A program made the translations under genes and the position numbers. From assembly GCA_903822005.1 (NCBI GenBank), contig CAIJNL010000018.1, positions 1 through 64,000 of the forward strand: 64,000 nt of DNA, given 5' to 3'. The stretch comes from an uncultured Nitrospiraceae bacterium (GTDB taxonomy: Bacteria; Nitrospirota; Thermodesulfovibrionia; Thermodesulfovibrionales; Dissulfurispiraceae). Every line of letters starts with the position of its first letter. Position 1 is the first letter of the stretch. Positions 5,330 to 37,745 of this stretch are shown one piece after another. The notes beneath the pieces were generated by a model. It saw only the letters and a program-made list of their open reading frames with translations. It made no database searches and was not told where the DNA came from.

Positions 5330-5610
5330 TCAACAGCCGCATTCTCTGCTGTTCATTTCATATCGCGTAATGAGGTAAGGGAAAAAATCCTTTTTTGGAC
5401 AAATACAAATTGCATGCTACCCTTTAAGTAAGACTGATGTGCAGGGAGTGCAAGCCTGGAAGATAACAATGAGGGAAATTTTTTTTGCCTTAAGCTGATA
5501 GCTGTCTCCTTTTCATTTTTGAGTGCCTGTTTTTTTGACAAAGAATAATGTGCGATACTAGTACGGTGTTATCAAACTAATTTGAGTTATTCAACAAAGG
5601 AGGCTTACAT

Positions 5611-6255
5611 ATGAAGGTCATTGCATTTAACGGCAGTCCGAGAAAACAGTGGAACACGGCAACGTTGCTCGGGAAGGTTCTGGAAGGCGCAAAGTCACAA
5701 GGTGCTGAAACAGAGCTTGTTCACCTGTACGACCTTAATTATAAGGGATGCATAAGCTGCTTTGCCTGCAAGCTGAAGGATGGCAAGAGTTACGGCAAAT
5801 GCGCGGTCAATGATGACCTTAAGCCCATCTTCGGCAAGATTGAGTCTGCTGACGTCCTCATTTTCGGCTCACCGATTTACCTGGGATTTGTTTCAGGCGA
5901 GATGCACTCATTTTTCGAGCGGCTTATCTTCCAGTATCTTACATACACAGACCCGCCTGCCTCGCTTTTTGAGCGCCAGCTGAAAACAGCTTTTATCTAT
6001 ACGATGGGGCTTCCTGAATCGGTCATGATCCAGATGGGCTACCCTCAGTTCATGGACAGGATCTCAATGTTCCTGACAAGGATATTCGGGCATGCCGAGT
6101 CGCTATGCAGCTTTGATGCCCTGCAGTTCGATGATTACTCAAAATACCATGCTCCCCGTTTCGATCCTGAGCATAAGGCGAAGTGGCATAAGGAAGTGTT
6201 TTTCAAAGATTGTGATAAGGCGTTTGAGATGGGGCAAAGGCTGGCAAAGGGATAA
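5611..6255 (+). CDS. NADPH-dependent FMN reductase / iron-sulfur flavoprotein family
   Basis: 214 residues with a flavodoxin-like fold. The N-terminal FNGSPRK loop binds FMN phosphate, and GSPIYLG is the second flavin loop. Residues 50-71 carry a cysteine cluster C-x2-C-x2-C-x10-C (CISCFAC, then KCAV), like the cluster-binding region of iron-sulfur flavoproteins, so a 4Fe-4S cluster may be present. Likely an electron-transfer or quinone/chromate-type reductase in the cytoplasm. A strong AAAGGAGG precedes the ATG. It is monocistronic or followed by the small Smr gene. Confidence 0.82.
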   Translation: MKVIAFNGSPRKQWNTATLLGKVLEGAKSQGAETELVHLYDLNYKGCISCFACKLKDGKSYGKCAVNDDLKPIFGKIESADVLIFGSPIYLGFVSGEMHSFFERLIFQYLTYTDPPASLFERQLKTAFIYTMGLPESVMIQMGYPQFMDRISMFLTRIFGHAESLCSFDALQFDDYSKYHAPRFDPEHKAKWHKEVFFKDCDKAFEMGQRLAKG

Positions 6256-32999: not shown

Positions 33000-33440
33000 T
33001 ACATCTTAGTATAACAACTATAGCCATTGCTGTCACTATTTCAAATTTCGGCGATTTTGCGGGCGTTTCGGGGTACGATGGAAACACAATGCTTCGAACG
33101 TTATGTATATGGATATCCAATATTGTCTTAGAGATTTCTCACAGCTGGCAGCAACTGATAACGACGCGGAACTATGAAGGTTTCTATCGGGAATGCCCAA
33201 CTCTGAGTTAAACGCCGATTAACAGCGACAGGCAATAGAAACAAAATAGTTTCTTGACCCCACCGACCATGCGTGATATATAATAGGCAAAATTCGTAAA
33301 AAGCGATTCCCTTTGACCGAGTCGGAATACATCAGAGCACTGAATGTTGACACTATTGCATTCATTTCTCTGGAATAAAATGATGCCCATAAAAATAGCC
33401 TTATTGCCTAAAGTGATCTGAAAGGAGCGTGACACGAGTT
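33000..33440. other. Gene-free stretch before the membrane protein
   Basis: About 440 bases without a convincing gene. It holds copy A of a degenerate repeat (33176-33198). From here to about 36.9 kb the DNA is a low-density accessory region. Confidence 0.5.
33176..33198 (+). repeat. Degenerate dispersed repeat, copy A
   Basis: GAAGGTTTCTATCGGGAATG (33176-33195), then CCC. Similar sequences occur at 34644 and 36638. In copy A the similarity to copy B reaches back to about 33130 (TTTCTCACAG, then GAACTATGAAGG). The element type is not recognised. Confidence 0.45.
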
Positions 33441-34543: not shown

Positions 34544-34643
34544 TTATGGAGCGCTGTATCCCCCTGATATCAGGTGAGATAGGCAGTATTGCCGCTACGG
34601 CTTTCTCACAGGAAGCGGTAAGGGACAATTAGAGCTGAACTGT

Positions 34644-34670
34644 GAAGCTTTCTATGGGCAATCAGCACAT
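34644..34670 (+). repeat. Degenerate dispersed repeat, copy B
   Basis: GAAGCTTTCTATGGGCAATC continuing to 34670. It matches copy A (33176) over the core, and the upstream TTTCTCACAG is shared as well. The element is unidentified. Confidence 0.45.
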
Positions 34671-34767
34671 TTGAGTGCAGTCGGCGAATCTTGACTTGCA
34701 GGTGAAGTAGTAGCCTTACAGGCAGACTGTCAAAGTCTAGTAGTGGTTTGTCTGCTGGATAAAAAGT

Positions 34768-35733
34768 TTAAACGTTGTCCTTGATAGTTTTATACAAACC
34801 GTTCAATTTTACACTGGCGATCCCGGCTTCACGCGACGCCTCGGAGGAGTACATCTGACTTGTGCCGATGACCTGATGATTGGCAGCCTTCAGGTTGAAG
34901 AACGCCTTTCCATTGACCGCTATTTTCCGTTCATAACGTTCATCCATGGAACAGTTTGCCTGCACTGATGTGACTCCGTTTTCGGCCGCGCTTTTTGCAT
35001 GATACATCTCACTCGTTAGAATGACTTCGCCATTACCAGCCTTAAGGACAAAAAAGAACTGTCCGTCGCTACTCTTGCTAAGTTCATACCAACCACCCAT
35101 TTGAACATTCCTTTTTTGGGGAGGCTCCTTATAGGGAATACTTTTCATAAGATCGTTAACAAATGCCAATAGATCACTCTTCCATTTTTCAACTCTCGAA
35201 ATGTCAATATCAGTAACAGGGCTTTGTGGAGAATTTAAAGAATTAGTCCGATCCATTTGATGCACTATCTGATGCCGCCTTTTCATTAACGAATCAAGTG
35301 ATGAGAAGTATTTTTGGAATGGCTTCACCTGAATCTCTGCCATCTCTAGATACTTTGCAAGTTCCTCGGTTCCGTTTATATTCATGGTGTTAACGTATGC
35401 GTCAATTGAGTCCTTAATAACGTTTTCAACAAACCTGCCTCTGTGCATTATTAAGCAGCCTAACAAGATAGTTTTCGGACGCTGGTAGGATTCCTGACCA
35501 ACCAAAGGTATTTTGTCTAGATTCTCAGGATTACCTTTGGGCAGACGAAACAAGAATAGATTGCGTATAACTTCCTCCAACGAGCTGTGAAGAAACACTA
35601 CCGACGCCCGCAGAACATCAGTGCGAAGTTGGATAATGCCTATGCTATTTTTTTCGAGTTCTTTATACGCGCCTATTAGATTCTCCACGCGAGTTATATT
35701 TTCTGCAAACTCTCCATAAGTGAAGTCGTACAT
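34768..35733 (-). CDS. HEPN-DUF1508-DUF1508 fusion protein
   Basis: 321 residues. Residues 1-200 are all-helical and carry the HEPN ribonuclease motif R-x4-H: Arg153 and His158 in RRHQIVHQM, preceded by the amphipathic helix LHSSLEEVIRNLF. Residues about 216-262 and 266-312 are two DUF1508 (YegP-like) repeats, seen as FFFVLKAGNGEVILTSEMY and FFNLKAANHQVIGTSQMY. HEPN domains are RNases of toxin-antitoxin and phage-defence systems; DUF1508 has no known activity. The gene is AT-richer than average and lies between IS-end remnants, beside a MazF module. RNase activity is inferred from the motif. ATG 35733 has AAGGG 8 bases upstream. Confidence 0.72.
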   Translation of the reverse strand: MYDFTYGEFAENITRVENLIGAYKELEKNSIGIIQLRTDVLRASVVFLHSSLEEVIRNLFLFRLPKGNPENLDKIPLVGQESYQRPKTILLGCLIMHRGRFVENVIKDSIDAYVNTMNINGTEELAKYLEMAEIQVKPFQKYFSSLDSLMKRRHQIVHQMDRTNSLNSPQSPVTDIDISRVEKWKSDLLAFVNDLMKSIPYKEPPQKRNVQMGGWYELSKSSDGQFFFVLKAGNGEVILTSEMYHAKSAAENGVTSVQANCSMDERYERKIAVNGKAFFNLKAANHQVIGTSQMYSSEASREAGIASVKLNGLYKTIKDNV

Positions 35734-35925
35734 GTTGTCGCCCTTCTATTTAATTATTCCAATGTAAAAGCATCTAACAATAATTATACGAATCATTCCT
35801 TTTTCGAAATATATTCCAATTATACCACGATGAAGCGAGAGGGAGTGATAAATTATTTCGGAAATCAGCAGATAGCCGGCATAGCCAAATATCAAAGTTA
35901 TCAGTAGCAATTTTCGTAACTTTTC

Positions 35926-36267
35926 TCACTCGAGAACGAGTATTTTCAAACTGCCCAGCAAGCGCTGTTTATTCTTTTCTGATATCTCTCCTATATGATC
36001 ACGAAACCTTTTGTTGTCTATAGAACGTATCTGATCAACTATGATATCAGAATCACACTGCAGCCCGGCCTCGCCTTTCTTTAGATGAATTCGTAGTATT
36101 TGCGCCTCCAGCTGCACTTTCGTTGTAATAGGGCAGACGATAGTGCTTGGATGATCTTCATTCAACAGGTTCGTTTGTATTACCACCACTGGCCGAATCT
36201 TGCCAGGCTCGGTGCCGAAGCGCGGATTGAGGTCAGCAGTATAAACATTAAATTTCCGCGGTATCAT
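35926..36267 (-). CDS. mazF: MazF/PemK-family mRNA interferase toxin
   Basis: 113 residues, PemK/MazF fold. The N-terminal PGKIRPVVVIQTN holds the conserved Arg of the active site, and ICPIT-like VCPITTK and VDQIRSID complete the family pattern. It cleaves mRNA at specific short sequences when freed of its antitoxin. Its ATG overlaps the antitoxin stop as ATGA, the normal order for this type of module (antitoxin first). Confidence 0.9.
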   Translation of the reverse strand: MIPRKFNVYTADLNPRFGTEPGKIRPVVVIQTNLLNEDHPSTIVCPITTKVQLEAQILRIHLKKGEAGLQCDSDIIVDQIRSIDNKRFRDHIGEISEKNKQRLLGSLKILVLE

Positions 36268-36503
36268 TCTGGCAGGCGGTCCTCTATAAGTTCAAGCTCT
36301 CTAAGCGCTTCAAGCGACGACTCCAATACAGCACCCGATTCCTTTTTGAGCTGCTTTTTTACAAGGTTTCTTTTAATAAACTTATTATAAAAACTCAAGG
36401 CATCGTTGATATAGGCATTACGGGATGTATGTATCGTACCTATAACCTCCTCAGTTTCTGAAAAGACATCATCACGCATTTTAAGCGATAAAGTTTTCGA
36501 CAT
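36264..36503 (-). CDS. Ribbon-helix-helix antitoxin
   Basis: 79 residues. The N-terminal SKTLSLKMRDDVFSETEEV resembles the beta strand and first helix of ribbon-helix-helix repressors; the C-terminal acidic, helical part would bind the toxin. It precedes mazF by a 4-base overlap. It should repress its own promoter and neutralise MazF. Confidence 0.82.
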   Translation of the reverse strand: MSKTLSLKMRDDVFSETEEVIGTIHTSRNAYINDALSFYNKFIKRNLVKKQLKKESGAVLESSLEALRELELIEDRLPE

Positions 36504-36637: not shown

Positions 36638-36660
36638 CAAGGTTTCTATCGCAAATGCGC
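36638..36660 (+). repeat. Degenerate dispersed repeat, copy C
   Basis: CAAGGTTTCTATCGCAAATG and a short continuation to 36660. The core shares AAGGTTTCTATCG with copy A (33176). Confidence 0.4.
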
Positions 36661-36755
36661 CTTATCGAGCAAAGGCTGATTGTATTGACTATCAGTCGAA
36701 GTCGCGTTCGTGCCTCTTTGTCAGAAGTGAATTAGGAGTAGTGTCCAGCTTGGCC

Positions 36756-37668: not shown

Positions 37669-37745
<77 letters not shown>

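Follow-up and report, generated by a model that had tools for sequence, protein, structure and literature searches.

A HEPN RNase-like protein fused in frame to a duplicated YegP in an uncultured Nitrospiraceae bacterium, and a possible partnership between the two

Introduction

HEPN proteins act as dimers that cleave RNA with the arginine and histidine of a conserved motif, and YegP is a small protein with solved structures and no function described in the literature that we searched. In an uncultured Nitrospiraceae bacterium the two are found in one protein of 321 amino acids, encoded by a single intact open frame with an ATG start (Table 1; positions are those of the window, the whole 64,000-nucleotide stretch analysed). 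The question raised by this locus is whether the two halves work together or were merely brought into one frame, and if they do work together, in what way. The initial annotation stated that it did not know such an architecture, and it read the protein as a defence system in which DUF1508 is the sensor and HEPN the effector. No description of a HEPN-DUF1508 protein was found in the literature searched, outside which most subscription papers lie, and the fused protein is a singleton among the sequences searched. Thus, the architecture appears to be new to that literature, and in it an already known HEPN family is combined with a novel partner.

Results and Discussion

The N-terminal half is a HEPN domain

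The N-terminal half of the fusion belongs to the HEPN superfamily, in its RiboL-PSP/Abi-like branch. The Pfam profile PF18735 (HEPN_RiboL-PSP) matches it at E 1.5e-10, scoring 41.8 bits where the cut-off is 28.4, and AlphaFold predicts helices across residues 1-198 with pLDDT values mostly of 70-95. The first nine structural neighbours of this half are all HEPN-type (Z 10.1-11.0), if YutE is counted among them as we assume, and Csm6 follows lower at Z 7.8. The best match reaches Z 11.0 with an rmsd of 3.2 over 129 aligned residues; since Z scores below 13 can be unspecific for helical models, the value of these top matches lies in their agreement with Pfam. The HEPN fold on which the initial annotation had made its reading depend is therefore what the model predicts. 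The R-x4-H motif that it had seen in an all-helical N-terminal half is also there, with R153 (CGG, 35275-35277) and H158 (CAT, 35260-35262) lying inside a high-confidence helix formed by residues 137-165.

The second point on which that reading depended, conservation of the two residues among homologues, holds as well, for both are kept in all relatives that we found. The R-x4-6-H pattern is present in four of four intact proteins (the fusion and three relatives) and in one gene remnant, and the stretch RRHQIVHQMDR is identical in all five. Across the wider PF18735 family the pattern occurs at 26 of 30 loci, a count biased upward by a script that favoured frames containing the motif, and at the four loci lacking it (L045, L049, L052 and L062) the frame picked is a wrong, interrupted or incomplete one. 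Taken with the conserved motif, the fusion would be expected to act as an RNase through R153 and H158. The Ribo L-PSP-HEPN family is included in the table of HEPN families of Anantharaman et al. 2013 (PMC3710099), and the fusion resembles it in profile match, HEPN fold and R-x4-H motif. In the portion of that paper available, however, the fusion partner described for the family is endoRNase L-PSP and the operon partner is ParB, and DUF1508 or YegP is absent.

Table 1. Features of the fusion locus in the window
Feature	Position	Strand	Basis
HEPN-YegP fusion gene	34768..35733	-	open frame; Pfam PF18735 and two matches to PF07411
HEPN domain (HEPN_RiboL-PSP), residues 14-196	35146..35694	-	Pfam; AlphaFold helices; structural neighbours
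R153-x4-H158 motif (RHQIVH), predicted RNase active site	35260..35277	-	sequence; conservation in relatives
Junction, residues 197-211; standalone relatives stop about here	35101..35145	-	alignment
AAGGA, remnant of the yegP Shine-Dalgarno sequence within the fused frame	35109..35113	-	alignment with standalone copy
Internal ATG (M212), ancestral yegP start codon	35098..35100	-	alignment; use as a start is presumed
Complete YegP (two DUF1508 repeats), residues 212-321	34771..35100	-	Pfam; match to 2k8e; AlphaFold
395-bp block, 91% identical to the standalone yegP unit (G000:C18:134414-134808)	34722..35116	-	DNA alignment
Decayed copy of the yegP terminator hairpin; standalone version perfect	34722..34755	-	alignment with standalone copy
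Promoter-like element containing TGGTATAAT	35775..35838	-	common to three other places in the genome; promoter activity is presumed
MazF/PemK-type toxin gene, 192 bp upstream of the fusion	35926..36267	-	PF02452, E 1.6e-25
Small ORF, putative MazE-type antitoxin, no Pfam match	36264..36503	-	position overlapping mazF

The C-terminal half is a complete YegP duplicated from a standalone gene

The two DUF1508 repeats reported initially at the C-terminus are confirmed by two matches to PF07411 (34930-35070 and 34777-34917; 133.5 bits, E 2.3e-39), and together they make one whole YegP. The last 110 residues match the E. coli protein end to end (2k8e, E 3.9e-44), and the likeness to YegP/UPF0339 (2k8e, 2k49) extends over the whole of this C-terminal part; YegP is normally a standalone protein, whereas in the fusion it forms the C-terminus of an RNase-like one. 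When the YegP half is modelled by itself from eight sequences, its pLDDT is 93.6 and it superimposes on 2k8e with Z 20.4 and an rmsd of 1.1 over 110 aligned residues. The whole-chain AlphaFold model gives no confident placing of the two halves relative to each other, and in it the YegP half lies mostly below pLDDT 50.

A standalone yegP is found on the same contig, 100 kb away (C18:134463-134810), and its protein is 89% identical to residues 206-321 of the fusion. The DNA of the two copies agrees at 359 of 395 positions, in a match that begins at the Shine-Dalgarno sequence of the standalone yegP and extends through its terminator hairpin. By this alignment the YegP half is a duplicate of the standalone yegP. 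Of the two copies, the standalone one seems the nearer to the ancestor, since its hairpin is perfect and that of the fused copy has decayed; the decayed hairpin was not flagged in a terminator scan. A diverged element further downstream is also common to both yegP loci (local alignment score 50, reached by none of 500 shuffles, whose maximum was 37). The old YegP start codon and the AAGGA eight bases before it are both kept inside the fused frame, and therefore it is possible that free YegP is also made by internal initiation at 35100.

The codons of the two copies differ by 12 synonymous and nine nonsynonymous changes (dN 0.035-0.038, dS 0.16-0.22), too few for a firm test, but both copies look to be under constraint and the YegP half does not look decayed. 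Amid 27 differences outside the hairpin, the copies share an identical run of 86 nucleotides (34796-34883; p about 0.012 by shuffling), which may reflect gene conversion or chance.

DUF1508 is scarce in the phylum of the fusion, being found in nine of 290 genomes. A search with the whole fusion protein in 99 other relatives gave no match to either half in any of the 99 at E 0.001. Elsewhere in the phylum DUF1508 is joined to other proteins, namely in an AAA-ATPase-like frame of 263 amino acids and in a frame of 278 amino acids in three genomes, so that it apparently serves there as an add-on module; loci with such fusions include L017 1495-2283, L020 850-1683 and L021 1447-2280. The tandem DUF1508 fold resembles chain AD of PDB entry 7b5h, from the baseplate of the Anabaena contractile injection system (Z 8.4, rmsd 2.5, 105 aligned), and no AP2-type DNA-binding domain is among the matches listed. 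YegP is also full-length or nearly so in three of ten matching phage records (Acinetobacter phage MD-2021a, Pseudomonas phage Y10) and occurs in viral contigs; seven of 11 viral yegP loci were examined and six (L093, L094 and L096-L099) were included in alignment A4. A search of viral contigs with the YegP half of the fusion alone gave no match.

The HEPN half is foreign and has standalone relatives

The GC content of the HEPN part is 0.40 against 0.50 for the window, and its GC3 is 0.42 against 0.59 for two neighbouring genes. Among 295 genomes of the phylum the HEPN half is found in one, its own, and in none of the 294 others. Judged by composition and phyletic distribution, this half is AT-rich and foreign.

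Four relatives were recovered by a pattern scan of a collection of species genomes in which the HEPN half alone served as the query, and yegP thus played no part in their selection. Three are intact standalone proteins, 44-47% identical, from Pseudoxanthomonas (L004), Lysobacter (L005) and a Luteimonas MAG (L006), and the fourth, in Achromobacter (L007), is only a remnant of the HEPN gene. The relatives end where the YegP junction of the fusion begins. Their PF18735 scores are 30.8 for Luteimonas, above the cut-off, and 28.0 and 22.1 for Pseudoxanthomonas and Lysobacter, both below it. Further searches with the HEPN half matched two of 397 genomes in the order of the Pseudoxanthomonas relative and one of 398 in the phylum of the Achromobacter remnant, all of them relatives already known; plasmids, phages and viral contigs gave no match. 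A possible HEPN remnant 5' of yegP on an Alloyangia plasmid, where tblastn reached back to residue 151, was rejected, as the alignment is poor before residue 205 and no HEPN frame is visible.

In Pseudoxanthomonas the HEPN gene is a single-gene integron cassette between two sites that we take, from general knowledge of attC anatomy, to be attC sites. Its 5' flank matches attC-type regions next to resistance cassettes in 3703 plasmid records, and its 3' flank does so in 571. The first bases of the cassette, GTTAGGT, exactly complement the R'' sequence ACCTAAC with which its own attC opens. DNA folding gives z scores of -4.15 for the upstream attC stretch and -1.66 for that of the HEPN cassette itself, and Rfam returned no match to the Pseudoxanthomonas stretch. 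An integron integrase is encoded in the Pseudoxanthomonas and Luteimonas genomes (480 and 469 bits), and none above the model cut-off is found in the genomes of Lysobacter, Achromobacter or the fusion. The Pseudoxanthomonas gene resembles the integron-borne anti-phage and toxin cassettes cited in the available part of PMC12444791. The window copy may differ, as its genome has no such integrase; no attC was seen beside it, although the attC pattern scan is insensitive and found none even in Pseudoxanthomonas, where sites exist. A second, smaller cassette with an ORF of about 86 amino acids and no Pfam match above the cut-off (L004 4618-4970) seems to precede the HEPN cassette in this species, P. 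kalamensis.

HEPN and yegP are juxtaposed a second time

In the Luteimonas MAG the HEPN gene ends at 5609 and a yegP on the same strand starts at 5659, leaving 49 bp between them. This yegP shares 83% of its amino acids with the closest copy in the family of the Pseudoxanthomonas relative and 52% with the YegP of the fusion; by such sequence likeness it is native to its genome. The PfkB sugar-kinase gene of the Luteimonas locus aligns directly upstream of yegP at 16 of 30 yegP loci of the family, with no HEPN gene between them, so that in Luteimonas a HEPN gene entered between the two. In fact, none of the 30 family yegP loci tested, which are those given as loci among 45 matches, holds a HEPN gene. 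Given the own-family character of the Luteimonas yegP and the HEPN-free loci of its family, the two HEPN-yegP joinings arose separately.

Could the fusion be fortuitous? A mobile HEPN gene may have landed beside a spare yegP and lost its stop codon, in which case the YegP tail would be tolerated baggage unrelated to the RNase. We consider this somewhat unlikely, yet it accounts for a good deal: a spare yegP copy does exist, the fusion is unique among the sequences searched, and no yegP lies within 5 kb of the HEPN genes of Pseudoxanthomonas or Lysobacter. Nor does any lie within about 1.5 kb of the 30 loci of the wider PF18735 family, so that any link between HEPN and yegP would be confined to a small subfamily. 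It is harder to reconcile with the separate juxtaposition in Luteimonas, which has the same order and orientation, and with the apparent constraint on the YegP half. A hand calculation that takes genomes of about 3000 genes puts the probability of finding one relative out of three immediately 5' of yegP at about 1 in 500 to 1 in 2000. DUF1508 proteins are encoded in all four genomes that hold a relative, one of these being a remnant only; for comparison, yegP is found in 41 of 149 genomes in the family of the Pseudoxanthomonas relative (E 1e-10), and DUF1508 in the nine of 290 genomes already mentioned for the phylum of the fusion. Two cases, the fusion and one adjacent pair, in a MAG, among three intact relatives, thus hint at a partnership between HEPN and YegP.

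The same arrangement could also arise if the HEPN cassette inserted 5' of yegP by preference for a shared target site, with no cooperation between the proteins. The HEPN gene does move as an integron cassette in Pseudoxanthomonas, and integron cassettes can enter secondary sites. However, no attC or common target motif was seen by eye at the Lysobacter, Luteimonas or Achromobacter loci or in the window, and plasmid searches with the 3' flanks of the Lysobacter and Achromobacter loci gave no match. We regard target-site preference as very improbable.

YegP as a possible partner of the HEPN RNase

The explanation that we prefer, and to which we give about an even chance of being right, is that a mobile HEPN RNase of the RiboL-PSP/Abi-like branch works with YegP and has here been joined in frame to a duplicated yegP. 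The HEPN gene would have been acquired as a mobile single gene; it has lost its stop codon within a few codons of the normal end, where it is joined in frame to the duplicated copy. The HEPN proteins would dimerise and cut RNA with R153 and H158, and YegP would be their partner in function, whether it restrains the nuclease, licenses it or directs it to a target. A 2026 paper that reports yegP homologues after capK-capS loci, taken up below, also speaks for this explanation. The relatives would borrow the YegP of the host genome in trans, in Luteimonas from the adjacent gene, whereas the fusion would hard-wire the partner in cis and might in addition yield free YegP by translation from the internal start codon. 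As to the form of the partnership, regulation of the RNase by YegP is a tentative suggestion, which we place slightly ahead of substrate targeting; the latter we think rather doubtful.

A known system to compare is HEPN-MNT (HepT-MntA, type VII), which shares the HEPN fold with the fusion (7bxo, Z 11.0, rmsd 3.0, 124 aligned); the likeness in having a controlling partner is presumed. The difference is that Pfam finds no nucleotidyltransferase (MNT) gene in the MazEF pair or in ten other neighbouring ORFs scanned between 29957 and 43481, and that the linked YegP matches no Pfam nucleotidyltransferase family.

We speculate further, as a bolder and unlikely version of this explanation, that YegP, a conserved orphan of E. 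coli and many other bacteria, may be a controller supplied by the host to a mobile HEPN RNase whose gene moves by itself as an integron cassette, and that the fusion made the borrowing permanent while the internal yegP start still supplies free controller. If this were true, it would be a toxin module with a core host gene as its antidote or licensing factor, and if YegP does control the RNase, a single-gene mobile toxin could spread without an antidote of its own. The fusion, together with a gene pair that arose separately, offers a first concrete hypothesis for the role of YegP, and one that can be tested in ordinary E. coli because this species has yegP.

The neighbourhood and the question of defence

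Immediately upstream of the fusion, and in its orientation, is a MazEF-type pair, and the MazF neighbour reported initially is confirmed by Pfam (Table 1). No MazF is found at the loci of the four relatives, where the nearest approach is one weak 30-residue MazE match in Lysobacter (E 0.024). The wider neighbours are by Pfam of release-factor, spermine-synthase, ankyrin, alpha/beta hydrolase and CbiG/tetrapyrrole methylase (cobalamin enzyme) types, and a tRNA-Met gene lies at 37669-37745. In PADLOC (2023 library), neither the fusion nor the adjoining MazEF ORFs nor any of the three intact relatives had a match. The typical defence neighbourhood described by the initial annotation is thus reduced to a single adjoining MazEF pair among wider neighbours that are mostly non-defence, and we do not call the locus a defence island. 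Its accessory island is supported by the GC content and phyletic distribution of the HEPN half. Its IS-end scars are degenerate short repeats (20-27 nt, 67-90% alike), which could not be assigned to an IS family.

These results bear on the reading proposed initially, in which the fusion is a single-protein defence system whose DUF1508 part senses a phage or damage signal and turns on the HEPN RNase, leading to abortive infection. HEPN proteins often serve as Abi effectors, and the account available from PMC3710099 describes a distant relationship of the RiboL-PSP family to AbiF/AbiD; integrons carry anti-phage cassettes (PMC12444791, available part), and MazEF adjoins the fusion. In addition, the accessible text of PMC13373217 reports a yegP homologue after 57 of 443 capK-capS loci. 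The products of capK-capS switch immune operons on after DNA damage, and the same controllers precede CBASS and Bub operons; the authors suggest that genes after capK-capS may have immune or general stress functions (PMC13373217). Against this stand the lack of any PADLOC match for the fusion or its relatives, the housekeeping-type genes among the wider neighbours and the presence of yegP itself in some phages. Moreover, we know of no phage protein or ligand that binds YegP. A sensor-effector system of this kind therefore seems improbable to us, and a role in defence would be a presumed one; we continue to favour an RNase that works with YegP.

The degenerate short repeats flank the accessory genes at 33135-33196, 34602-34664 and 36639-36696. 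One repeat type recurs elsewhere in the genome (G000:C33:26237) and another is found downstream of the standalone yegP. A further sequence of about 64 bp, with the consensus core TGGTATAATTGGAATATATTTCGGAAAAAGGGATGGTTCGTATAATCATTGTTA, has four copies in the genome, at 35775-35838 of the window and at G000:C2:332094-332158, G000:C18:76405-76468 and G000:C18:254062-254120. In all four places it stands just 5' of an ORF in the same orientation, the fusion in one case and ORFs of 204, 145 and 170 amino acids in the others; the 204- and 145-residue products have no Pfam match above the cut-off. From its recurrence in this position, the 64-bp sequence has the look of a promoter or regulatory element that several accessory genes have in common.
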